From assembly GCF_002900095.1 (NCBI RefSeq), contig NZ_LLKN01000002.1, forward strand, positions 1,426,001 to 1,490,000: a DNA stretch of 64,000 bases, written 5' to 3'. The position numbers and the translations under genes were made by a program. Every line of letters begins with the position of its first letter. The stretch's first letter is position 1. Below the pieces are notes generated by a model, which did no database searches, was not told where the DNA came from, and saw only the letters and a program-made list of their open reading frames with translations. This DNA is from Salegentibacter mishustinae. GTDB taxonomy: Bacteria; Bacteroidota; Bacteroidia; Flavobacteriales; Flavobacteriaceae. Shown in pieces: positions 1,546 through 13,932 of this stretch.

Positions 1546-1838
1546 TCAAAAGTTAAAACCCTTTAATATCAGAAAGTCTTGCACTGCTGAAAAGGCGAGA
1601 AATCAAATTAAGGAATTATTTCGATAAAATAAACAATAGATTCGGACAAAAAAATCTGTATTTCGTCCTAAATATTTGAATGTTAGAATCGTAAGATATA
1701 TATTTATATCACTCCAAAGCCTGATCCTTTATCTTAAATGGTCGTAACACTCCACTACTTATTATATATTTTTTAGTACAATTTTTAAAAGAAGGTGTCA
1801 GGCATAGTGCAAGTCATCATTAACTGAAACCAAAAAAT

Positions 1839-2071
1839 ATGCTTAAAATAACAATCGCATCAGTCTTGATGCTAGTAATGGTGTTTGCATTTTCAATAGA
1901 TGCAAATGCCTAAGAAGGCTATAAAATAGGGAAGATATTATGGTTCCTCCAGATTTCAACAAATTTAAAACTGTAGAAACCATCAAGCTGAAGCATAACC
2001 AAACTTATAGAGACATTCCTGGCTAAGGGATCTGTTTTTACCATGTAACCAAAGCAATAAATTTTAAATAG
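1839..2071 (+). pseudogene. remnant of a small exported protein
   Basis: An ATG at 1839 opens a 24-residue frame that is a complete-looking signal peptide (Lys near the start, hydrophobic core, ending D-A-N-A) and then stops at 1911. In another frame, from about 1940, MVPPDFNKFKTVETIKLK continues for 28 codons to a stop at 2024, and after one more stretch to 2069. A signal peptide cut off at its cleavage site, with readable protein in a shifted frame, suggests a frameshifted and decayed secreted-protein gene. The parent family is not recognised. Confidence 0.35.
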
Positions 2072-2105
2072 ATAAAAAATATCCATTAACTAAAACAAAC
2101 AAATT

Positions 2106-2534
2106 ATGTACTTAAGAAACATTCAGATTTTCGCCTTTTTGAGCTCCCTACTTTTCTTTTCAAGTCAAAATAACAGCTATTTTTCAGTAGAGGAGCTGCT
2201 TGATCCTGAACCACAACCAGTGGAATATCGGCTAGTTGTAAAAATTATCGACGATGAATGGAGGGTAGTTTTCGAAGATGATGAAACTAAAAGTGATGTC
2301 ACTTTAAGAAGAGGCGACCGGATTCGATGGGTGGTTGAGGGGTCTGATGCCTCTTTTTCGTTTCCTGAGATTCAGATTTTTGGACTTGAAACAAGAGATG
2401 TAAAAGATGGAAACCCTTTGGTGATGGCAATTTCAAGAAATGCTCCTGATGGAACATATGCCTATTCTGTATTTGTACACGAGGACATGACCTATGCTCG
2501 TGGTCAATCCCCGCCAAGAATTATCATTAGATAA
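2106..2534 (+). CDS. small exported beta-sandwich-like protein, cupredoxin-like without copper site
   Basis: A 142-residue protein with an N-terminal hydrophobic signal segment (about residues 8-20). The rest alternates short beta-type strands, with a GDRIRWVVEG turn in the middle and APDGTYAYSVFVHEDM near the end. This layout recalls the last strands of cupredoxins. However, there is no cysteine anywhere, so a type 1 copper site is impossible and the fold assignment is only an inference. It lies about 100 bp before the propeller sensor kinase and may supply a periplasmic input or partner for it. Confidence 0.6.
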   Translation: MYLRNIQIFAFLSSLLFFSSQNNSYFSVEELLDPEPQPVEYRLVVKIIDDEWRVVFEDDETKSDVTLRRGDRIRWVVEGSDASFSFPEIQIFGLETRDVKDGNPLVMAISRNAPDGTYAYSVFVHEDMTYARGQSPPRIIIR

Positions 2535-2640
2535 TAGATTCAAAAAGACTGTCTAATGCAGTAATGGATCATTGAAATATTCTCAGAAAATAGGACAATT
2601 ATTCAAAGTATCGAATTTTGATTACCTGACTCTTTTCAAT

Positions 2641-5600
2641 ATGCTAATAATAACTAAGAAATTTAATTCGATAAAGCCTGACTCTAATCGGTGTGGTATT
2701 AAGAGGAAGGCCTTTGATCTTTTCTTTCTAGTTGGCTGCAGAAAATTTGTAGGATCAATAGTAAGCTTAATCTGCCTTCTAGCGCAATTTAGCTGTCAAA
2801 ATATTGATAATAAGAGTTTCGATCAAGGTCTAAAGGATACAGCGAATATTTCAATCCCAAAAATTATTTATTTAGACAGTCTTTCTGACACCCTTCAGCC
2901 AAAAAAGATCTGGATCAAAGACAATTCTCCTCGAAAAGTCTTACCAATCCCAGGAACACAGACGGAGGCCTATACTATCCAAGATGGGCACAATGAATCT
3001 CTAACTATCTTGCCTCCACAAATTATTCAAAGGTCTTACCTAAAAAATGAAAAGGGAGAGGCTATTTTAGATGAGGAAGGCAATCATTACTACCTGGGGG
3101 ATGGTGGGATTTCCCATTTCAAAACCTTCACTACAGATGATGGCTTAAGCCTTGACAATATCACCTCCTCCTTATTAGACCAATCAGGAAATTTATGGCT
3201 TGGTACCTGGGGAGGAGGAATTTCGAAATTTGACGGTATTTCTTTTACCAATTTTACTACAGCACATGGTCTTTCCAATAATTTGATTCACTGCCTGGCA
3301 GAAGATCAGGAAGGCAACATTTGGATCGGTACAGAAGGAGGAGGGATTTCTATCTATGATGGATATACTTTCACAATTAAAAACACCTCTGATGGACTGG
3401 CAAATGACGTTATCTACGGAATCACCCAGGTCGGCAATGGAAATATCTGGATAGCTGCAGGAGAAGGAGGTGCTTCCAAATACGATGGTGAGAACTTTAC
3501 CACTTATAATCAGAATAATGGTCTCCAGGGAAATTCAATTATTAAAATCGCTGAGGATAATAATGGCTTCATCTGGTTTGCGACCGGAAGCAACGGGATT
3601 TCAAGATTTGATGGAGAATCTTTCCTTGATTTTTCCGAAAAAGATGGATTGGCAGAAAATGCCATCAATTGTATCAAGATAGATAGCTCAGGTAACATTT
3701 GGATAGGTACCAAAGGCGGTGGTATTTCAAAATATCAAGAAAGCCCTGATTTGGAGGAAAAAGGAACCTTTACGAATTTTACTACTTCTAAGGGACTTGG
3801 GCATAATGATGTGTGGGATATTGAAGAAGACCTGGAAGGTAATTTGTGGTTTGCTACAGATGGAGGTGGGGTTTCAAAATTTGATGGAGAAAAATTCACA
3901 ACCTATACTACTGCCCAAGGATTACCTGAAAATGTTGTCTATAGCATTTCGATTGATGGAAAAGGAAGTCTCTGGTTTGGAACCGCGGGTGGAGGCCTTT
4001 CACTTTACACAGGTTCTGCTTTTAACAATTTCACATCAGATTTTGGCCTGGCCAACAACAGTGTTTATGGCATCCTTGAGGATGATAGTGGCAATCTATG
4101 GTTCGGCACAGACGGGGGAGGCATTTCAAAATACAACGGCAAATCCTTTACTAATTTTACAAGTGATCAGGGACTGCCAAACCCACTGGTGATCAGTGCA
4201 CTCAAAGACAAAAAAGGCCAGCTTTGGTTTGGAACCGGTGGTGGAGGTATTGCGCTTTACAAAAAGGAATCTATTCAGAGTAAAAAACCGAGTTTTACCG
4301 TTTTTGACACTTCTAATGGTTTACCAAATGATATCATTTATGCACTCAAAGAGGATAGTCAGGGAAATATTTGGATAGGTACTATCGGGGCAGGTTTGGT
4401 AAAATTCGATTGGAATACCGAACCATCTGGCCAGTCGGGTTTTATTACATTCAATGCAGATCATGGATTGGGCAGCAATTACATTTATAGCATTCTTGAA
4501 GACCGCAAAGGAAACCTTTGGGTAGGTACTGCCGGTGGGGGTGTTTCCAAGTTTGATGGTAAATCCTTTATCAATTTCACCACTGCCCAAGGATTATCTA
4601 ATAATATTGTTTGGAGCATATTAGAAGACAAAGCAGGAAACCTGTGGTTTGCGACTCAGGGGGGAGGAGTTTCAAGGTTTGATGGACAATCTTTCAGTAG
4701 CTTCACCATAAAAGAGGGGCTGAGCGATGACACTGTATACGATCTTTTAGAAGATAAGGAAGGGAACATTTTTATCGGCTCCAATCACGGTTTTACCGTA
4801 ATTCCAGCAAAGGTAGCCACACTTCCTTTTCCTGAAATTAGTGGAAGCTTAGAATACTACAACACAGCTAATGGCTATCCGGTCAAAGATGTAAACAAAG
4901 GCATGTACCTGGACAGGTCCGGAAATATATGGGCCGGTAATGGAAGTGATAAAACGGGTTTGGTGAAATTTAATTACCAGGCTTTGAGAAAAAATCAAAA
5001 AAGACCATCTTTAAAAATCAAAAACATTGGAATAAATGAACAGCCAATTAGTTGGATTTCCCTGCAAAAGTTCAATGATGAAAATGGGGTTTCTGACTCT
5101 TTAAAATCTCTGGCTTATATCACAGATGAAGTCAGGGTATTTGGTAGAACCCTTACCGATGAGGAAAGAAAAGCCCAACAAGAAGAATTCTCTAAAGTCC
5201 AATTTTCCGAAATAACGAGGTTTGAGAATTTTCCTGAAAACCTAACACTTCCCTACTCTCAAAATCAAATTACCATAGATTTTGGGACAGATGAATTGAT
5301 AAGGCCCAATTTGATTGAATACCAATATATTCTTGAAGGTTATAGTAAAAGTTGGAGTCCTGTCATAAAAAATAGCCTCGCTACTTTTGGTAATATCGGT
5401 GAAGGTGATTACGTGTTCAAGGTAAAAGCAAGATTTAAAGGGCCTGCCAAAGGGGAGGGAAAAGAATGGTCTGAAGAAATTTTTTATAGATTTTCTGTTC
5501 TTCCCCCTTGGTACAGAACCTGGTGGGCCTATTTGATCTACTTGATACTTTTTATGGTGGTTATTAGAAGGATTCATGTATTTCAAAAAAACAGAACCAT

Positions 5601-6474
5601 CCGCAAAGAAAGGGATCGAATGCAGCAAAGAGAGCTGGAGCATGCAAAGGAAATAGAAAAGGCTTATTTAGATTTAAAAACCACTCAAGCCCAACTCATC
5701 CAACAGGAGAAACTCGCCAGCCTTGGGCAACTCACCGCAGGCATCGCCCACGAGATCAAGAATCCGCTGAATTTCGTGAACAACTTTTCGGAAGTATCTC
5801 GTGAAATGATGCAAGAAGTACGCGAAGAGATAGAAACAGTAAAAGCCTACCGCGACAGGCCTCTTCCCACGGGTTCACTAGATGAAATTTCAGCCATCCT
5901 TGACGATATCGAATCCAATCTTGAAAAAATACACCATCACGGCACCCGCGCTGATGGTATTGTGACCTCCATGTTACAGCACAGTCGTGGTGGCAGTGAT
6001 AAAATGGAACCCACAGATCTAAATGCCCTCATCAAAGAATATGTGAACCTGGCCTTTCACGGTATGCGCGCCAAGAAAAACCCAATCAATGTAGACATTG
6101 ATTTGCAACTCGACCCAAAAATCAAAACATTAGACTTAATTGAAGAAGATTTCAGCCGGGTTATTCTCAACCTAACTAACAACGCATTTGATGCCATGTG
6201 GGAAACAGCAGATCAACGACCACTAAAACTAACGGTGCGCACCAAACAAAAACTAAATGCCATTCAAATTGAAGTAGAAGATAACGGTACCGGAATTCCG
6301 GATGCAATTAAAGACAAAATTCTTCAGCCTTTTTTCACTACCAAAAAAGGAACGGAAGGCACTGGTCTGGGACTGAGTATCACCAACGATATCATTAAGG
6401 CGCATGGTGGTAAATTGGAAGTCACATCACGTGTAGGAGAGGGAACCAAATTTATGATTATCTTAGAAAGGTAA
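2641..6474 (+). CDS. two-component propeller sensor histidine kinase
   Basis: About 1277 residues from ATG 2641; the frame is open back to TTG 2572. After a hydrophobic export segment come about 14 repeats of the GNLWxGTxGGGxSKFDG type (about residues 159-780), enough for two seven-bladed propellers. A Y_Y_Y domain (about 870-955), one membrane helix rich in W, Y and L (about 960-976) and a coiled coil follow. The kinase core has the H-box AHEIKNPLNFVNN (His1037), DNGTGIP and GTGLGLSI. Unlike classic hybrid systems there is no receiver and no AraC-type output domain, so phosphate must pass to separate receivers, most simply those encoded at 7820 and 8216. The ligand is unknown. Confidence 0.9.
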   Translation: MLIITKKFNSIKPDSNRCGIKRKAFDLFFLVGCRKFVGSIVSLICLLAQFSCQNIDNKSFDQGLKDTANISIPKIIYLDSLSDTLQPKKIWIKDNSPRKVLPIPGTQTEAYTIQDGHNESLTILPPQIIQRSYLKNEKGEAILDEEGNHYYLGDGGISHFKTFTTDDGLSLDNITSSLLDQSGNLWLGTWGGGISKFDGISFTNFTTAHGLSNNLIHCLAEDQEGNIWIGTEGGGISIYDGYTFTIKNTSDGLANDVIYGITQVGNGNIWIAAGEGGASKYDGENFTTYNQNNGLQGNSIIKIAEDNNGFIWFATGSNGISRFDGESFLDFSEKDGLAENAINCIKIDSSGNIWIGTKGGGISKYQESPDLEEKGTFTNFTTSKGLGHNDVWDIEEDLEGNLWFATDGGGVSKFDGEKFTTYTTAQGLPENVVYSISIDGKGSLWFGTAGGGLSLYTGSAFNNFTSDFGLANNSVYGILEDDSGNLWFGTDGGGISKYNGKSFTNFTSDQGLPNPLVISALKDKKGQLWFGTGGGGIALYKKESIQSKKPSFTVFDTSNGLPNDIIYALKEDSQGNIWIGTIGAGLVKFDWNTEPSGQSGFITFNADHGLGSNYIYSILEDRKGNLWVGTAGGGVSKFDGKSFINFTTAQGLSNNIVWSILEDKAGNLWFATQGGGVSRFDGQSFSSFTIKEGLSDDTVYDLLEDKEGNIFIGSNHGFTVIPAKVATLPFPEISGSLEYYNTANGYPVKDVNKGMYLDRSGNIWAGNGSDKTGLVKFNYQALRKNQKRPSLKIKNIGINEQPISWISLQKFNDENGVSDSLKSLAYITDEVRVFGRTLTDEERKAQQEEFSKVQFSEITRFENFPENLTLPYSQNQITIDFGTDELIRPNLIEYQYILEGYSKSWSPVIKNSLATFGNIGEGDYVFKVKARFKGPAKGEGKEWSEEIFYRFSVLPPWYRTWWAYLIYLILFMVVIRRIHVFQKNRTIRKERDRMQQRELEHAKEIEKAYLDLKTTQAQLIQQEKLASLGQLTAGIAHEIKNPLNFVNNFSEVSREMMQEVREEIETVKAYRDRPLPTGSLDEISAILDDIESNLEKIHHHGTRADGIVTSMLQHSRGGSDKMEPTDLNALIKEYVNLAFHGMRAKKNPINVDIDLQLDPKIKTLDLIEEDFSRVILNLTNNAFDAMWETADQRPLKLTVRTKQKLNAIQIEVEDNGTGIPDAIKDKILQPFFTTKKGTEGTGLGLSITNDIIKAHGGKLEVTSRVGEGTKFMIILER

Positions 6475-6484
6475 AAAATTGCGT

Positions 6485-7810
6485 ATGGATAAAGCAATCG
6501 AAATAGAACTAAAAAAAGTTTACGATACTTGGCTTAATGCATATCTCAATGGGGATGTAAAAACTTACGATGCTTACTTTGATACCGATTATCGTTTTAT
6601 TGGTTCTGCCAACAATGAGGAGTATTTAAATCGAAAAGACACCACAAAGTTCTTTGAAGCTACGGCTCACCAATTGGCCGGAAAAACAGAATTACGAAAA
6701 AACGAAATAACCATTTCACAATATACAAATGTGTTTTTTATCACCCATTTTTTTGAAGCCTATTTTTTACATAACAGTCATTGGGAATATTATGGTAGGT
6801 TTCGGTTTAGCTCGGTAATGATCAAAACTAAGAATGGTTGGAAATTTATTTACCAACATTTTTCGATGCCAGACAACAAAGTAAATACTGGAAAAACCAT
6901 CGGCTTTGAAGCAGTTACTTCGGAAAATATGCAACTTAAAGAAGCCATTAAACGCAGAACGGTTGAATTAGAACAAAAAAATGAGCAATTACAGATTGCC
7001 TTAGAAGATTTAAGAGCCACCCAAGCCCAACTCATTCAGTCGGAAAAACTGGCCTCGTTAGGACAATTGGCTGCCGGAATTGCCCATGAGATCAAAAATC
7101 CGATGAATTTTATCAATAATTTTTCGGAGTTGAGTTTAGAATATGTAGAAGAACTAAAAGAAGCCCTTGCAAAACTCGAAAAGAATGATACCACGGCAGA
7201 AATGGGTGAATTGCTAGATAATGTATCCGAGAACCTTAAAAAGGTTCACCACCACGGCACACGGGCCGATAACATAGTAAAATCGATGTTGATGCATTCG
7301 CGTGGCGGTTCCGGCAAGTTAGAACCTACAGATTTAAATGCATTAATTAAAGAATATGTGAATTTGGCATTTCACGGTATGCGTGCCGGTAAATATGCCA
7401 TTAACGTCACCATTGACTTGAATCTTGATGAAACTGTTGGAAACGTGTCTTTAAACACTGAAGATTTTAGTCGGGTTATTTTAAACCTATGTAAAAATGC
7501 TTTTGATGCCATGCGAGCTAAAAGGCAATTATCAGAAAACGAGACTTACCAACCGGTCCTTAATATTCAAACTTATAAAGATGAAGCTCAAGTAGTGCAT
7601 GTAGTAATTCAAGACAATGGCCCGGGTATTCCAGACAGTAATAAGGAAAAACTTTTTCAGCCGTTTTTCACCACCAAAAAAGGAACCGAAGGCACCGGAT
7701 TGGGTTTGAGTATTACTCACGATATCATTACGAAACACAAGGGACGTATTGAAGTGAGTTCAGAAGAAAACAACTTTACACGCTTTCATATTTATTTACC
7801 ACAGAAATAA
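6485..7810 (+). CDS. soluble histidine kinase with N-terminal SnoaL/NTF2-like domain
   Basis: About 441 residues from ATG 6485; a TTG six bases upstream is also in frame. Residues 1-130 look like a SnoaL/NTF2-like cone domain (conserved aromatic positions, and the ending NGWKFIYQHFSMP). A coiled coil (about 145-185) and a kinase core follow: H-box AHEIKNPMNFINN (His201), DNGPGIPD and GTGLGLSI. No membrane helix or signal peptide is present, so it should act in the cytosol and sense a small molecule in the cone pocket. Its core is nearly the same as that of the kinase upstream (shared segment PTDLNALIKEYVNLAFHGMR). It starts about 10 bp after that gene. Confidence 0.88.
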   Translation: MDKAIEIELKKVYDTWLNAYLNGDVKTYDAYFDTDYRFIGSANNEEYLNRKDTTKFFEATAHQLAGKTELRKNEITISQYTNVFFITHFFEAYFLHNSHWEYYGRFRFSSVMIKTKNGWKFIYQHFSMPDNKVNTGKTIGFEAVTSENMQLKEAIKRRTVELEQKNEQLQIALEDLRATQAQLIQSEKLASLGQLAAGIAHEIKNPMNFINNFSELSLEYVEELKEALAKLEKNDTTAEMGELLDNVSENLKKVHHHGTRADNIVKSMLMHSRGGSGKLEPTDLNALIKEYVNLAFHGMRAGKYAINVTIDLNLDETVGNVSLNTEDFSRVILNLCKNAFDAMRAKRQLSENETYQPVLNIQTYKDEAQVVHVVIQDNGPGIPDSNKEKLFQPFFTTKKGTEGTGLGLSITHDIITKHKGRIEVSSEENNFTRFHIYLPQK

Positions 7811-7819
7811 AATAAAGCT

Positions 7820-8194
7820 ATGAAAATATTAGTCGTTGATGATGAAAGAGATGTAGAAATATTATTTCGTCAGAAGTTTAGAAAAGAAATTAAAAACAAA
7901 AGCTTAGAATTGGTGTTTGCTTTTTCGGGCCAGGAAGCATTGGATTTATTAGAAAAAACAGATCCACCCGAAGTGATGTATATTTTTTCAGATATCAACA
8001 TGCCAGGTATGACCGGATTAGAATTGCTTGACATAGTAAAAGCACGTTTTCCAAACATAAAAATAAGTATGATTTCGGCGTATGGTGATGCAGAGAATTA
8101 TAACAAAGCCATAGATTCTGGTGCAAAACAATTTTTTACCAAACCCATTGATTTTGTATCCTTAAAAAAAGAAATCACCAGTTTATTAAACTAA
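7820..8194 (+). CDS. single-domain response regulator (receiver only)
   Basis: A 124-residue CheY-like receiver with the acidic pair D7-D8, phospho-acceptor D58 in FSDINMPGMTG, the conserved Ser/Thr region (MISAYGD) and the switch lysine in TKPIDF. It has no output domain, so it should work as a phosphorelay intermediate, a phosphate sink, or through protein contact. It begins 9 bp after the SnoaL kinase, and that kinase or the propeller kinase is its probable donor. Confidence 0.9.
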   Translation: MKILVVDDERDVEILFRQKFRKEIKNKSLELVFAFSGQEALDLLEKTDPPEVMYIFSDINMPGMTGLELLDIVKARFPNIKISMISAYGDAENYNKAIDSGAKQFFTKPIDFVSLKKEITSLLN

Positions 8195-8215
8195 CGAACA
8201 ACAATTCAATAAGCC

Positions 8216-9259
8216 ATGAGGAACAAGATAATGGTAGTAGATGACGAAGAGGATTTAAAAGTGCTAATAAAACAGCGCTTTAGACAAAAAATTCGTCAAA
8301 ATGAATATGAATTCATATTTGCTCAAAACGGAAAGCATGCTCTTGAACAATTGCTTGATCATCCAAATGTAGACCTTATTTTGAGTGATATAAACATGCC
8401 CGAAATGGATGGTCTCACTCTTCTTACCAAACTGGCAGAGCAAAACTCCCTTATTAAATCTGTTATCGTTTCAGCCTATGGAGATATGGAAAATATCCGT
8501 ACGGCAATGAATCGTGGTGCATTTGATTTTATTACTAAACCCATAGATTTTAAGGATCTTGAAATTACTATTGAAAAAACAATAAACCACGTTACGGGAA
8601 TAAAAAAAACTTTGCAGGCTTTAAAAGAAAACAACATCCTGAAGATGTATGTTGATGAAACAGTGCTCAATTTCATGGGAGGAAAGAAAATGGAAAGCGC
8701 GCTCTTTGATAATGAAACTGTAGAGGGATCGGTCGCATTTATAGATATCTGCGGCTTCACAGCAATTACCGAAAATGAACCCGCAGATAAAGTAGTAGCT
8801 ATGCTTAATGCCTATTTTGATATCATTGTTCATGAAATTATAAAAGAAGAAGGCATCGTAGATAAATTCCTGGGAGATGCTGTTATGGCCGCGTTTAAAG
8901 GAAAATTTCATCTGGATAGGGCAATGGATGCCTGCCTCTCGATTAGAAAAGCAATTCATAAATCAGATATTTCAATTGGATCGAAAACCTACAAACCAGA
9001 AGTTTCCATTGGCATAAACAGCGGTGAGATGGTATGGGGCAACATAGGATCTGCTACATTAAGAAGACTTGATTATACAGTTATTGGGGATGCAGTAAAC
9101 GTAGCAGCCAGGTTACAGGAGGCAGCTAAAAAAGGCCAGATTCTTATAAGTCAATCCAATTATGAAAAAGTAAAGGAATCTTTTTGCTGTAATCTGGTAG
9201 CTGAAATAAAAATGAAAAATAAGGAAAAACCCCTAACTGTTTATGAAGTCCTGAGTTAA
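8216..9259 (+). CDS. receiver-class III adenylate/guanylate cyclase
   Basis: 347 residues. Residues 1-120 form a receiver with D58 in LSDINMPEMDG and the lysine in TKPIDF. A helical linker follows, then a class III cyclase domain from about residue 165. Both metal-binding aspartates are visible (FIDICGFT and DKFLGDAVMA), as is the transition-state segment VIGDAVNVAARLQ with its Asn and Arg, so the enzyme should be active. The Lys in DKFLGD fits ATP use, but cAMP versus cGMP cannot be settled by reading. Phosphorylation of D58 probably controls output. It follows the lone receiver by 21 bp. Confidence 0.9.
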   Translation: MRNKIMVVDDEEDLKVLIKQRFRQKIRQNEYEFIFAQNGKHALEQLLDHPNVDLILSDINMPEMDGLTLLTKLAEQNSLIKSVIVSAYGDMENIRTAMNRGAFDFITKPIDFKDLEITIEKTINHVTGIKKTLQALKENNILKMYVDETVLNFMGGKKMESALFDNETVEGSVAFIDICGFTAITENEPADKVVAMLNAYFDIIVHEIIKEEGIVDKFLGDAVMAAFKGKFHLDRAMDACLSIRKAIHKSDISIGSKTYKPEVSIGINSGEMVWGNIGSATLRRLDYTVIGDAVNVAARLQEAAKKGQILISQSNYEKVKESFCCNLVAEIKMKNKEKPLTVYEVLS

Positions 9260-9324
9260 GAATAATCCTTTAAAAAATAAAAAACATGCATTTTATTCTA
9301 GAAATTGAGCGACCACATTTTTAA

Positions 9325-10215
9325 ATGAGTAGCTCTAAAAAAATAAATTGGCATTCTATATGTTCACTGCACTCCATTCTCTTCACAGTACTTGGAGTTC
9401 TCTTTGCGGTGGTGGGGCTGAAGGGATTTCTTGTTCCAAACAACTTCCTCGACGGCGGGGTGACCGGGATCTCTATTCTTTTGTTAGGAATAAGTCCACT
9501 TCATATTAGTTTGTTATTACTGATCTTCAATTTGCCTTTTGTGATTATAGGATTTAAGAAAATTGGCTACACATTTGGAATTCATGCAGGTATAGCGATT
9601 TTGCTACTTTCTGCCGGAATGTATCTATTAGAAATCGAAGTATTTACTGAAGATAAAGTGCTTATCGCAATTTTTGGAGGTTTTTTCATAGGGCTCGGGA
9701 TTGGTTTTGTTTTAAGGGGCGGAGGAGTTATAGATGGACTCGAGGTCATCGCCCTACACACCGAAAAAAAGTCGGCTTTCACTTCAGCAGAGATTATTTT
9801 GACCCTTAACATCCTAATTATTATGGGAGCCGCATACCGGTTTGGTATCGAAACGGGGATGTATTCTATTCTTGTTTATTACACAGCCATGCTAACCACC
9901 AATTACGTTGTTGAAGGGTTTGAGGAATTTACAGCTCTCAATATTATTTCCAAAGATGCAGCCGAAATCCAAAATATGATTGCAAACGAGTTTGGAAAAG
10001 GGATCACTATATTTAAAGGGGAACGTGGCTATCTCCCAAAACTTCATAAGAAAAAAACAGATTGTGATATTATAGTAACCGTGGTGACACGCCTGGAAAT
10101 CCACCGGATTAAAAATTCAGTGATGAAAATAGATCCCCAGGCATTTATCTTTGTAAACACGATAAAAGAAGTAAATGGCGGATATTTAAGTAATACAATA
10201 AAGGAAAAGTATTAA
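9325..10215 (+). CDS. YitT family membrane protein (first of a tandem pair)
   Basis: 296 residues: an N-terminal YitT/DUF161 membrane region with about five or six hydrophobic helices, including the family segment FGGFFIGLGIGFVLRGGGVI, then a C-terminal soluble DUF2179 domain (about residues 215-290, with KGERGYLP and D-C-D-I). YitT proteins are suspected transporters; the substrate is unknown. It lies 65 bp after the cyclase on the same strand and is followed 18 bp later by a paralogue, so it probably belongs to the same signalling cassette. Confidence 0.85.
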   Translation: MSSSKKINWHSICSLHSILFTVLGVLFAVVGLKGFLVPNNFLDGGVTGISILLLGISPLHISLLLLIFNLPFVIIGFKKIGYTFGIHAGIAILLLSAGMYLLEIEVFTEDKVLIAIFGGFFIGLGIGFVLRGGGVIDGLEVIALHTEKKSAFTSAEIILTLNILIIMGAAYRFGIETGMYSILVYYTAMLTTNYVVEGFEEFTALNIISKDAAEIQNMIANEFGKGITIFKGERGYLPKLHKKKTDCDIIVTVVTRLEIHRIKNSVMKIDPQAFIFVNTIKEVNGGYLSNTIKEKY

Positions 10216-10233
10216 CCAATTAAAATTAAATTT

Positions 10234-11121
10234 ATGAGTAGTACAGATCGTATCGATTGGAAATCCATTTTTTCCCTATCTTCAATGATGTATACCATAT
10301 TGGGGGTGTTTTCTGCCCTGATTGCGTTGCAGGGGTTTATGATTCCTAACCATTTTCTGGATGGCGGTATAACAGGGATTTCCATTTTAATTGAAGAAGT
10401 TTTCCACATTCCCTTCAGCCTACCTTTTATACTTTTAAACCTTCCGTTTATCTTTATGGGGTTTAGAAAAATCGGAAAAACTTTCAGTGTAAATGCTTTA
10501 ATAGCAGTTATACTTCTTGCAGTACTTATGACGTTCATCACCTTTCCCCAAATTACCAGCGACAAGGTGCTTATAGCGGTTTTCGGAGGGTTTTTTATTG
10601 GACTGGGAATAGGTTTAGTTATACGGGGCGGCGGGGTTATAGACGGGTTGGAAATCATTGCCCATTATACCAATAAAAGAATTGGTTTCTCAACCAGTGA
10701 AATTATTATGACCATTAATACCCTGCTTTTTATTGGAGCGGCTTTTGAATTTGGAATTGAAACAGCCATGTATTCTATTCTTGTTTATTTTACAGCCATG
10801 AAAACTTCAGATTATGTAGTTGATGGATTTGAAGAATTTACGGCTTTAACTATTATTTCAAAGGAATTTGAAACGGTAAAATCGGTGATCGTAAATGATT
10901 TTGGTAAAGCCGTAACCGTTTATAAAGGAGAAAGAGGTTATCTTCCCTCCAGTTATGATATAAAACAGGATTGTGATATTGTGATGACTATAGTAACGAG
11001 AATAGAAATACACAGGATCAAAGAGGTTATAAAGGAATTGGATCCCAACGCATTCTTTTATGTACAAAGGATAAAGGAAGTTAAAGGAGGATTAGGTAAA
11101 CATAATAGCATGCAGCATTGA
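10234..11121 (+). CDS. YitT family membrane protein (second of a tandem pair)
   Basis: 295 residues with the same plan as its upstream neighbour: a multi-helix YitT region containing FGGFFIGLGIGLVIRGGGVI and a C-terminal DUF2179 domain with KGERGYLP. The two copies align along their whole length with few gaps, which indicates local duplication followed by divergence. They could form a heteromeric membrane complex. The stop codon overlaps the TTG start of the HD-domain gene downstream, which suggests translational coupling. Confidence 0.85.
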   Translation: MSSTDRIDWKSIFSLSSMMYTILGVFSALIALQGFMIPNHFLDGGITGISILIEEVFHIPFSLPFILLNLPFIFMGFRKIGKTFSVNALIAVILLAVLMTFITFPQITSDKVLIAVFGGFFIGLGIGLVIRGGGVIDGLEIIAHYTNKRIGFSTSEIIMTINTLLFIGAAFEFGIETAMYSILVYFTAMKTSDYVVDGFEEFTALTIISKEFETVKSVIVNDFGKAVTVYKGERGYLPSSYDIKQDCDIVMTIVTRIEIHRIKEVIKELDPNAFFYVQRIKEVKGGLGKHNSMQH

Positions 11122-11699
11122 GCAAGATTCTATTTGAAAATATTTATAAGAAAATTATTTCCAGATTAGATCAGGAACTTCCCGGGTCGCTTGTCTACCA
11201 TAACGTAAATCACACAAAATATGTCTTGGAAAAGGCAGTGAAACTTGCTGCAAGTGAAAACATAACCGGGAGGGAACTCGAACTTATAAAAATTGCTGCT
11301 TTATATCATGACACGGGATTTTTGCTTAGTCATATAGAGCACGAGAATCTGGGATGCCTAATCGCCTCAAGAGACCTGCAGGAATTATTTTTAGACCCAG
11401 TAGAAATTGATATGATATGTGGCATGATAGCCGCAACAAAAATTCCGCAAAGACCAAAGAATATTTTTGAAAAGATAGTCGCAGATGCTGATTTGTTTTA
11501 TCTGGGAACTCCTAATTATAATCAGTTTAGCAAGAAACTTTACAAAGAATTAAAGCATTTTGATCCTTCCATCAATGATGAAAAGTGGTTAAAGATACAG
11601 GTCAATTTTCTTTCATCTCACAGCTATCATACAAAATATGGTAAGGAAATCTTGGAACCGGTTAAAAGAGACATTTTAAACTCTCTATGTTTAAGGTGA
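11118..11699 (+). CDS. HD-domain phosphohydrolase
   Basis: 193 residues, beginning at TTG inside the stop codon of the second YitT gene; no ATG is available near the N-terminus. HD-superfamily metal ligands are visible: His in YHNVNHT, the HD pair in ALYHDTGF, and a later Asp in ADADLFYLG. The family hydrolyses phosphoester or nucleotide substrates. Next to a nucleotide cyclase it could turn over the signal, but this is an inference from position only. It is the last gene of the cassette before decayed integrase sequence. Confidence 0.8.
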   Translation: MSKILFENIYKKIISRLDQELPGSLVYHNVNHTKYVLEKAVKLAASENITGRELELIKIAALYHDTGFLLSHIEHENLGCLIASRDLQELFLDPVEIDMICGMIAATKIPQRPKNIFEKIVADADLFYLGTPNYNQFSKKLYKELKHFDPSINDEKWLKIQVNFLSSHSYHTKYGKEILEPVKRDILNSLCLR

Positions 11700-11979
11700 A
11701 AACTAAGCTTTTTAGGAATTTTAAGCTGGTCTACAATTTCTTTTAAATAGCTATTTGTATTGCTATACGCCGGTAATAGAAATTCTGAAGTTGGGTTTTC
11801 ATATTTATCCATTTATTCACTGAAGTTTTCATTTTCAGGCTCATTTCAGCGCATTTTCCATTTACCGTCATACGGGCGTAAATGGATAATTCTTTTTTGT
11901 TTCGGTTGAGTTTTCTTGTAAAGAAAAGTACAGAGAATGTAGTAAAATCAGGCATTTCGAATGTCTTTAAATTAAACAA
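11700..11979 (-). pseudogene. truncated, frameshifted tyrosine-integrase remnant
   Basis: From ATG 11979 on the minus strand the frame reads an arm-type DNA-binding domain of Bacteroidota tyrosine recombinases: an F-S-V-L-F-F-x-R-K start, then SIYARMTVNGKCAEMSLK and a W at the end of the domain. Shortly after, the similarity moves to another frame, where NTNSYLKEIVDQL matches the usual start of the SAM-like core-binding domain. It then ends at the HD gene. The catalytic domain is absent, so the gene is dead. Its place beside two tRNA genes suggests a lost integrative element. Confidence 0.6.
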
Positions 11980-12077
11980 TACGTAATAAAGACGAAGGTC
12001 AAATCAATCTAATGATCATTCTAAGATAGTGAAATGCTGGAAAGAAAGTATTCACCGAATCATTCACTGGATAGGGT

Positions 12078-12103
12078 GATATCAAACCATATCAAATGAT
12101 ATC
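12078..12103. repeat. short 10-bp direct repeats near the integrase remnant
   Basis: ATATCAAACC is followed directly by ATATCAAATG and then ATATCG, a 10-bp period. The segment is also bounded by GATATC at both ends. Lying between an integrase remnant and tRNA-Pro, it could be a relic of integrase arm-binding sites. This is suggested by position and spacing only. Confidence 0.3.
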
Positions 12104-12112
12104 GTAAAAACA

Positions 12113-12148
12113 AAAAACACTGAAAATCAATAGATTAACAGTGTTTTT
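12113..12148 (-). terminator. rho-independent terminator after tRNA-Pro
   Basis: Ten-bp arms AAAAACACTG and CAGTGTTTTT are separated by a 16-nt loop. On the minus strand the hairpin is followed by a T-rich run. It sits about 20 bp downstream of the tRNA-Pro gene in that gene's direction. Confidence 0.6.
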
Positions 12149-12170
12149 ATATCCTTTTAAAGAAGGTTCG

Positions 12171-12245
12171 TCGGGGTGGCAGGATTCGAACCTGCGGCCT
12201 CCTGCTCCCAAAGCAGGCGCGATAACCGGGCTACGCTACACCCCG
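12171..12245 (-). tRNA. tRNA-Pro (anticodon TGG)
   Basis: On the minus strand a 75-nt cloverleaf is formed. The acceptor stem CGGGGTG pairs with CACCCCG, the T-loop GGTTCGAATCC is canonical, and the anticodon arm CCTGC-TTTGGGA-GCAGG carries TGG. No CCA is encoded. The gene lies between integrase debris and tRNA-Ser; tRNA 3' ends are common integration targets. Confidence 0.93.
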
Positions 12246-12436
12246 AGTAATTTCTTAATCGCGCTCGGCGCGATAATTGGGAAGATTTATTTTAGCTAAA
12301 CCCATAAATAAACCACAAAATTAATAGTCTAAACTATTAACGGAAATTTTAGCCTTTTCCGATCCAAAACACTCTTTAAAAAGCAGTCCGGGAGACGGAG
12401 GAAGATTATCCCTATCTTTTCCATAAGAAAAGGAGA

Positions 12437-12468
12437 ATAAAAATCCGCAGACTAAAAAATCTTGCGGA
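12437..12468 (-). terminator. terminator overlapping the 3' end of tRNA-Ser
   Basis: On the minus strand TCCGCA, which includes the last bases of the tRNA-Ser gene, can pair with TGCGGA 13 nt later, followed by TTTTTAT. The terminator would share its first arm with the tRNA acceptor end. Confidence 0.45.
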
Positions 12469-12547
12469 GAGACCGGGATTCGAACCCGGGCATCCAAAAA
12501 GGATGACAGCTTAGCAGGCTGCTGCATTACCACTCTGCCACCTCTCC
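12465..12547 (-). tRNA. tRNA-Ser (anticodon GCT)
   Basis: On the minus strand an 83-nt cloverleaf is formed. The acceptor GGAGAGG pairs with TCTCTCC, the T-arm is GGTTCGAATCC, and a variable arm CATCC-TTTTT-GGATG is present as expected for class II tRNAs. The anticodon arm GCAGC-CTGCTAA-GCTGT carries GCT, so it reads AGC and AGT serine codons. No CCA is encoded. Confidence 0.92.
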
Positions 12548-12693
12548 AATTTTAAAGAACGCGCAAACAATTTTGCGGTTGCAAATGTAACTTTTACTTA
12601 CTTACCTTCCAAACTTTTTTGGGCTAAAGAACAGAATAAAATTCGCCGTTTTTTTTAATCGCTTTGACATCAGAAATTTAAGCTTAGAAATTT

Positions 12694-13932
12694 CTAAATA
12701 TTTATTTCTTCCCGATCTATCATACGGGCTATATTTCCAATAATTCGTTGATGATTCTTCACAAAAGGATTATTTTTATCCCAAACATATCCCGCCAGAA
12801 CCGCACAAATTTGCTCTCTAATATCGGTTCTGGGATTCTCGTGAAAAAATAATTTCTGTAGATTCCCGGTGTACCATTCTTTTACGTAACTACTGAATAC
12901 AGAGATACCGGCTTGCATATATTCCGCATAATCTTTCTCCCAATCAACTTTTTTACCTTCTACTTCAAGTTTAGTCAATTTAGCGGCTCGCAAACCAGAT
13001 TCGGTGGCAAAGGCAACTCCAGAAGAGAAAATAGGATCAAGAAATTCTGCACTGTTCCCGGTTAATGCAAATCCTTTGCCATAGATCTTTGTTACGTTTC
13101 GGGAGATATTCGGCAACTTAACCGGTTCAAATAAAAAAGGATAGGAGTTAAACCTGTTGTTATAATATTTCAGATTTTTCAACATCTCTTTAAAGGCAAC
13201 CGAATTATTTTCACTGAAACCTTCAAACCATTCATTTTCACTTACAAAACCAAGGCTTGAATTTCCGTTAGAAAAAGGAATATACCAGAACCAGGTTTTA
13301 GTATCTAAAACTTCAAAGGTAATAAGTTCACCTTCTTTGCCTTTTGGTCGATTGGTTTCTTTAATATGGGTGAATATGGAAGAATTACCGGAGATTTTTG
13401 GGGAAGCATTTAAATTTAATTGTTCTGCCAATACGCGACCGTTTCCACTCGCATCAATTATAAATTCAGCTTGTATTTCAATTTTTTCTTCAGAATTTAT
13501 CACAACTTCGGTCAAAGATTGTTTTTCTTCAAAATTCACGTTTTTGACTTCCGCATTAAAATAGATCTTTACGCCTTTTCGTTGAATTTCATTCGCTAAA
13601 ACCAGGTCGAAATCAGCTCTCGGAACCTGCCACGTCCAATCCCAGCCTTTTCCAAATTTTTCAGAAAAATCAAATTCGCCAAGTTTATCTTCTTTTATAA
13701 ACCTGGCACCGAATTTCTTTTGAAATCCTTCGGCTTTTATAGCCTCTAATAATCCTGCTTCCTTAAAGTTTTCCATGCTTTTAGGTAACAGGCTCTCACC
13801 AATACTAAAGCGCGGAAATGAACTTTTTTCCACAACCAAACATTCTACACCTTGTTTTTGCAAATACCCGGCTGCGACCATCCCAGAAGGGCCGGCGCCA
13901 ATAATTAAGATCTGTGTGTTGAGCTGTTTCAT
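12694..13932 (-). CDS. FAD-dependent oxidoreductase, halogenase/monooxygenase-like
   Basis: 412 residues with an N-terminal FAD-binding motif IIGAGPSGMVAAG (GxGxxG at residues 12-17), a second dinucleotide-type segment near FIDASGNGR, and WFWYIPF in the middle, which matches the WxWxIP motif of flavin-dependent halogenases. The family includes tryptophan halogenase-like and geranylgeranyl-reductase-like enzymes. It stands divergent from the pigment operon. I infer that it halogenates or hydroxylates the aromatic head of the polyene, as in known chlorinated flexirubins. The key halogenase lysine was not placed with certainty. Confidence 0.75.
   Translation of the reverse strand: MKQLNTQILIIGAGPSGMVAAGYLQKQGVECLVVEKSSFPRFSIGESLLPKSMENFKEAGLLEAIKAEGFQKKFGARFIKEDKLGEFDFSEKFGKGWDWTWQVPRADFDLVLANEIQRKGVKIYFNAEVKNVNFEEKQSLTEVVINSEEKIEIQAEFIIDASGNGRVLAEQLNLNASPKISGNSSIFTHIKETNRPKGKEGELITFEVLDTKTWFWYIPFSNGNSSLGFVSENEWFEGFSENNSVAFKEMLKNLKYYNNRFNSYPFLFEPVKLPNISRNVTKIYGKGFALTGNSAEFLDPIFSSGVAFATESGLRAAKLTKLEVEGKKVDWEKDYAEYMQAGISVFSSYVKEWYTGNLQKLFFHENPRTDIREQICAVLAGYVWDKNNPFVKNHQRIIGNIARMIDREEINI

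Follow-up and report, generated by a model that had tools for sequence, protein, structure and literature searches.

A two-component cyclase locus of Salegentibacter mishustinae with adjoining YitT and HD genes: a probable cyclic-nucleotide pathway with membrane output

Introduction

Several described systems approach the locus considered here, each in a different respect. Pycsar pairs the gene for a class III cyclase, PycC, with that for an effector, PycTM or PycTIR, and class IIIb adenylate cyclases of the cyanobacterial CyaC type join a receiver (REC) domain to a class III cyclase bearing a Lys/Thr pair. We know of no established function for YitT proteins. Borrelia BB0017, a member of that family, has a PII-like DUF2179 tail whose ligand is left open in PMC6516651, and SbtA-SbtB consists of a bicarbonate transporter and a PII-like regulator that binds cyclic AMP (cAMP) and answers adenine nucleotides (PMC10117731). 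The subject of this analysis is a run of eight plus-strand open reading frames (ORFs) at 2106-11699 of a 64,000-nucleotide stretch of Salegentibacter mishustinae DNA, hereafter the window (contig C2, NZ_LLKN01000002.1, 1426001-1490000; genome 3.82 Mb). We consider it probable that these genes, the first excepted, specify a cyclic-nucleotide pathway that is driven by two-component kinases and has its own output at the membrane; its layout resembles that of Pycsar, and its receptor logic would resemble that of SbtA-SbtB. The ORFs are as follows.

2106-2534, plus strand: first ORF, 142 amino acids, no family match (ORF list)
2572-6474, plus strand: propeller sensor kinase, with propeller repeats, Y_Y_Y, HisKA and HATPase (Pfam)
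6479-7810, plus strand: SnoaL kinase, with N-terminal SnoaL_3, HisKA and HATPase (Pfam)
7820-8194, plus strand: lone REC, phospho-acceptor motif SDIN present (Pfam)
8216-9259, plus strand: REC joined to a class III nucleotidyl cyclase (Guanylate_cyc), predicted class IIIb adenylate cyclase (Pfam, residues)
9325-10215, plus strand: YitT protein 1, C-terminal DUF2179, cyclase-associated clade, motif KGERGYL (Pfam)
10234-11121, plus strand: YitT protein 2, C-terminal DUF2179, predicted PII-like (Pfam, fold prediction)
11118-11699, plus strand: HD-domain phosphohydrolase, predicted phosphodiesterase, motifs YHNxxH, HD and DAD (Pfam, motifs, fold)

The likeness to Pycsar is that genes for a class III cyclase and a membrane effector occur as a pair, and a PycTM homologue takes the place of that effector in 16 relatives of the locus. 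Here, however, a REC-cyclase stands beside sensor kinases, YitT with its PII-like tail would be the effector, an HD enzyme (often fused to the effector in relatives) is added, and the active-site residues are of the cAMP type. In contrast to the CyaC type, the REC-cyclase here is a simple one, kinases and a lone REC being encoded separately, and genes for an effector and a hydrolase adjoin it. BB0017 shares the YitT membrane part and the PII-like DUF2179 tail (PMC6516651), whereas the cyclase-associated YitT clade has the loop KGERG[FYL][LM] and a genetic tie to cyclases and HD. As in SbtA-SbtB, a PII-like domain would govern a membrane protein, nucleotide binding by the YitT tail being a prediction (compare PMC10117731), but here one chain contains both the PII-like and the membrane part, the latter is YitT rather than SbtA, and kinases, cyclase and hydrolase lie in the same gene run. 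Among the open-access papers listed in literature searches, no title or abstract opening describes a YitT-HD-cyclase system as a whole, and none of those found for YitT together with adenylate cyclase concerns such a system by its title.

Neighbourhoods of related cyclases

A scan with the REC-cyclase provided the best 80 relatives, from Bacteroidota by their record titles and forming a top slice rather than a random sample; downstream counts cover the 74 of these 80 loci with at least 1.5 kb downstream. On the same strand and within 1.2 kb behind the cyclase, a gene of the HD family is present in 26/74 loci, a YitT gene in 17/74, and one or both in 27/74; anywhere in the retrieved stretch, HD or YitT occurs in 35/74. 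Furthermore, HD and YitT form a single protein behind the cyclase in 14 of the 74 loci (about 486 residues, HD first), and 19 distinct HD-YitT fusion proteins were found overall. The neighbourhood search that the earlier note had proposed thus finds cyclase, YitT and HD together in a good part of the loci, and not rarely. This association is genuine and widespread, but some loci lack it.

More than 600 bp of upstream DNA is available for 76 related loci; 73 of them have a lone REC ahead of the cyclase, and 71 have an upstream kinase gene. Where the upstream DNA reaches 5 kb or more (61 loci), the number of same-strand kinase genes is 0 (3 loci), 1 (18), 2 (18), 3 (13), 4 (3), 5 (5) or 7 (1). 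The conserved unit is kinase(s), lone REC and REC-cyclase, often with a membrane effector and/or HD. The earlier note had treated all eight genes as one cassette with two kinases and paired YitT proteins. Its first, 142-amino-acid gene is not conserved; its kinase, REC and cyclase part is, with kinases accompanying the cyclase in numbers that vary from 0 to 7, while the effector and/or HD belong to it only in a large part of the loci, and the YitT pair, present here, was seen in no other related locus.

In 16/74 loci, the gene directly behind the cyclase (gap 15-225 bp) encodes a PycTM homologue of 184-217 amino acids; one that was scanned matched PF18967 at 2.3e-13 and the PADLOC PycTM model at 1.6e-28. 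YitT as the membrane output, also suggested earlier, could thus apply to part of the loci only, with PycTM instead in these 16. In locus L034, the order is cyclase, PycTM, then HD. On a tree of 81 cyclases, a single change parts the PycTM group from the HD/YitT group; repeated independent exchange between PycTM and YitT/HD is unsupported, since that one change suffices. The nearest cyclase relative, that of Lutimonas halocynthiae (L013; 77% identity, among the best 80), is followed by a kinase ORF of more than 3000 codons (L013:11477-21436), without YitT or HD behind.

Co-occurrence across genomes

Three profiles were run against one set of 395 genomes from the phylum, for the cyclase (cut placed between 316 and 168 bits, where the score list has a gap; 26 genomes above it), HD (cut 220 bits, 20 genomes) and YitT (cut 410 bits, 15 genomes). 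The HD subfamily is present in 17/26 genomes with the cyclase and in 3/369 without it, leaving nine with the cyclase and no HD; YitT accompanies the cyclase in 13 genomes and occurs without it in 2, and all three are found in 12. Fisher tests that ignore relatedness give 1.2e-20 for cyclase-HD, 1.4e-15 for cyclase-YitT and 1.0e-17 for HD-YitT, figures that are descriptive because the profiles were built from cyclase neighbours and the cut-offs chosen after the lists had been viewed. Of the 17 genomes with both cyclase and HD, 13 have the two on one contig and no more than about 11 kb apart, the exceptions being G353, G364, G465 and G469.

A control starting from YitT gives the same picture: a class III cyclase lies within 10 kb in 16/20 loci of the cyclase-associated clade and in 0/25 loci of other YitT proteins. 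The linked group was set by profile and includes members beside another cyclase (L153, L156) or far from any (L160, L161); the other group numbers 26, of which 25 had their neighbourhoods examined, the last being L197, a YitT protein of this genome that lies far from the genome's sole PF00211 match. In 14 control genomes, YitT proteins were found in 5. Taken together, the fusions, the genome counts and the YitT control rule out chance adjacency.

Of the three genomes with HD and without this REC-cyclase, G311 encodes two other class III cyclases, carrying 7TMR-DISM and TPR respectively, which HD and YitT genes follow directly; a single 528-amino-acid chain of G332 unites cyclase and HD (L154:8189-9775); and in G559 no cyclase was found in the retrieved stretch. 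A GAF-cyclase-HD chain occurs in G429 (L113:1486-3567), whose HD scores just under the cut-off (203 bits); with G332 this makes two fusions of HD to class III cyclases of other types. The HD-YitT fusion of G353 is far from the REC-cyclase, but a different class III cyclase lies about 2 kb away. In G425 and G461, a TPR protein ends in the HD domain; it adjoins the cyclase in the former and lies about 10 kb upstream in the latter. With the cyclase and without this HD, G087, G241 and G436 have PycTM as the next gene after the cyclase; in G485 a YitT gene lies beyond the kinase gene, facing away and about 2 kb off; G095 has, grouped elsewhere, an HD that scores lower (192 bits) together with a PycTM homologue and a TPR-cyclase; and near the cyclases of G325, G414, G515 and G619 none of these partners was seen.

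Two proteins with a C-terminal HD of this subfamily, of 859 amino acids (L162:1887-4466, about 10 kb upstream of the REC-cyclase) and 880 amino acids (L163:9599-12241, adjoining it), have TPR (Pfam) and a start that is TIR-like by eye; they are a possible further effector type.

Cyclase, kinases and receivers

The catalytic domain of the cyclase is of class III (PF00211, 8.7e-21; the sole match in the genome), and a PADLOC PycC match (6e-23) runs through the same domain. The residues include the metal-binding Asp 177 and 221, Lys 217, Thr 288, Asn 295 and Arg 299. That the cyclase has its metal and transition-state residues, as stated earlier, is confirmed, and these and the substrate residues are invariant in a 22-row alignment of the window cyclase and 21 relatives. 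Lys and Thr occur together in 75/81 cyclases by a simple pattern, which in the other six missed or caught another stretch at one site. Taken with the Asn, the Arg and both metal Asp, the Lys/Thr pair accords with class IIIb adenylate cyclases. By spacing to the metal Asp, the residues F100, R142 and Q144 reported for the cytidylate cyclase EaPycC (PMC11224242) correspond to F175, K217 and L219 here, of which two of three differ. The predicted and most likely product, judged by active-site residues, is cAMP.

Sequence identity is 58% between the cores of the propeller kinase and the SnoaL kinase (272 residues) and 46% between the lone REC and the cyclase REC (123 residues). Because the cores and the RECs are this alike, either kinase may act on either receiver. 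For the lone REC, a role as an intermediate or as a phosphate sink is conceivable.

YitT and HD proteins

Both YitT proteins match PF02588 and PF10035 above the cut-offs and are 56% identical. The DUF2179 tail is predicted to adopt a PII-like (ferredoxin-like) fold, the comparison covering residues 197-290 only. The pair was considered as a recent duplication, which was rejected on finding the copies in different sub-branches of the YitT tree, and as a general feature, which was rejected likewise: two whole adjoining copies occur in no other locus examined, L023 having one copy in two pieces. A further YitT protein of the clade, with KGERGYL, lies at L207:9145 (G417), where no cyclase was found in the retrieved stretch.

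The fold of the HD domain matches cyclic-nucleotide phosphodiesterases, tied with the bacterial HD hydrolase 2pq7. An HD substrate was not taken from the fold alone, in view of this tie and of the many PDB entries of PDE10A that swell the match list. The YHN...HD stretch aligns with phosphodiesterase 6fg5, and the general-acid His and four metal ligands of class I phosphodiesterases are all present in order. In HD alignment A1, H25, H29, D62 and D120 are invariant and H61 is found in at least 90% of rows (A1 numbering; add 3 for the window ORF). Class I phosphodiesterases (PDE4, PDE9, PDE10) are thus resembled in the fold over the whole HD domain and in a metal site of YHNxxH, HD and Asp in the same order. 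In contrast to them, the protein here is bacterial, has only 190 residues and a predicted activity, and lacks PDEase_I membership, its Pfam matches at the curated cut-off not including that family; at expectation values up to 1, PDEase_I appears in 5/34 HD relatives (best 0.0025).

Elsewhere in this genome, a 394-amino-acid HD-PycTM fusion is encoded at G000:C2:1853904-1855088 (L200:4905-6089). ORFs of about 400 amino acids with this HD occur in many Flavobacteriaceae genomes without the REC-cyclase, PycTM being Pfam-confirmed in this genome and G610 only.

Proposed pathway and alternatives

In the pathway that we favour, the sensor kinases would phosphorylate the lone REC and the cyclase REC, and the phosphorylated REC-cyclase would make a cyclic mononucleotide, to judge from its active site most likely cAMP. 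An outside and an inside signal may be merged by this phosphotransfer, as the earlier note suggested. YitT, a multi-pass membrane protein, would be the receptor, its PII-like DUF2179 domain binding the messenger and altering the membrane part, by analogy with the action of free SbtB on SbtA. HD would hydrolyse the messenger at the receptor and so end the signal; the HD-YitT fusions show physical tethering of the two. For the claim in the earlier note that a cyclic nucleotide is made, read at YitT and cleared by HD, the support comes from prediction. A stronger version, for and against which we lean equally, is that the proteins of this YitT clade form a novel type of membrane protein gated by cyclic mononucleotides. 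Their fused PII-like domain would sense what class III cyclases produce, a phosphodiesterase of their own would be fused or adjoining, and in Bacteroidota with the pathway the site of cAMP action would be the membrane and not a CRP-type transcription factor. The genome has nine PF00027 matches, and by eye none of the eight that were read has the Gly-Glu...Arg phosphate cassette, leaving room for a non-CRP receptor. Two observations limit the pathway as drawn: in 34/81 cyclases none of HD, YitT and PycTM lies within 3.6 kb downstream, and a clade D uridylate cyclase likewise uses Lys (PMC11224242), so that the cyclase product stays a prediction.

It is quite unlikely, in our judgement, that the locus is instead a Pycsar-like anti-phage system, in which the cyclase makes cyclic UMP or cyclic CMP, YitT damages the membrane as PycTM does, and HD guards against accidental firing. 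The PycTM homologues directly behind orthologous cyclases in 16/74 loci speak for it, as do the fusions of a related HD to PycTM in this genome and G610, with the 400-residue ORFs suggesting, by length only, many more. However, REC domains and sensor kinases point to control of the cyclase by kinases and not by phage, the base-pocket residues differ from those of EaPycC at two of the three positions reported for it, and the window genes give PADLOC matches for the cyclase domain only, with none for YitT or HD. Neither PycTM nor PycTIR was found beside the window cyclase by Pfam and PADLOC, YitT and HD being there, and the genome's only PF18967 match lies away from the cassette. The Lys with Thr also fits class IIIb adenylate cyclases, though a clade D uridylate cyclase shares the Lys.

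Another account, which we think unlikely, is that YitT and HD are a pair for nucleotide metabolism or transport (for example, export or import with cleavage by HD), merely co-regulated by the cyclase pathway, whose messenger is read elsewhere. HD hydrolases take many substrates, the nine PF00027 domains are potential alternative receptors, and G364 and G469 have HD-YitT pairs far from any cyclase. Yet these two genomes do have the REC-cyclase elsewhere, HD is fused to cyclases, YitT proteins of the clade adjoin several cyclase types, and PycTM in the slot of YitT points to a receptor role. That the run is simply a sensor-cyclase operon followed by functionally unlinked genes would agree with the 34 cyclases lacking these partners, but is contradicted by the HD-YitT and cyclase-HD fusions and by the neighbourhood, genome and control counts, and we hold it to be very improbable.

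Gene layout and surroundings

The eight ORFs are separated in order by 37, 4, 9, 21, 65 and 18 bp, the last two overlapping by 4 bp. These coordinates bear out the earlier description of eight closely spaced genes on one strand (4-65 bp apart, with one 4-bp overlap), and Pfam agrees with the domains then assigned for seven of the eight, all but the 142-amino-acid first ORF. The latter has no Pfam or NCBIfam match, and a protein search of the relatives' loci returned the window itself as sole match; with no relative among the searched loci, it was dropped as a pathway member. TTG starts are listed for three of the genes, whose start positions are therefore uncertain; the propeller kinase may begin at TTG 2572 or ATG 2641. 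Within 1700-12700, promoter-like sites (34 observed, 33.5 expected) and terminator-like sites (9 observed, 9.1 expected) are at chance level and therefore neither favour nor rule out a single transcript.

Upstream of the cassette, 1839-2026 holds two short ORFs, one resembling a lone signal peptide, perhaps from a decayed gene. The 3' side is bounded by tRNA-Pro and tRNA-Ser genes on the minus strand (12170-12547). A long run mostly on one strand (12694-34052) begins with a flavin adenine dinucleotide-dependent oxidoreductase with a tryptophan-halogenase match (Pfam), includes ORFs that by eye resemble aromatic amino acid ammonia-lyase and ketoreductase, and is perhaps akin to clusters for flexirubin or aryl polyenes.

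Implications

The fusions and the PycTM variant make the role of YitT directly testable, with cyclase, hydrolase and receptor domain as purifiable soluble pieces, and the single-chain cyclase-HD proteins of G429 and G332 would be simple test enzymes. If the proposed pathway is right, a Pycsar-like pair of cyclase and membrane effector would here carry two-component input and a built-in off-switch. It would also reveal a role for a cyclic mononucleotide in part of the Bacteroidota, and it offers a concrete idea of the role of one branch of the widespread YitT family.

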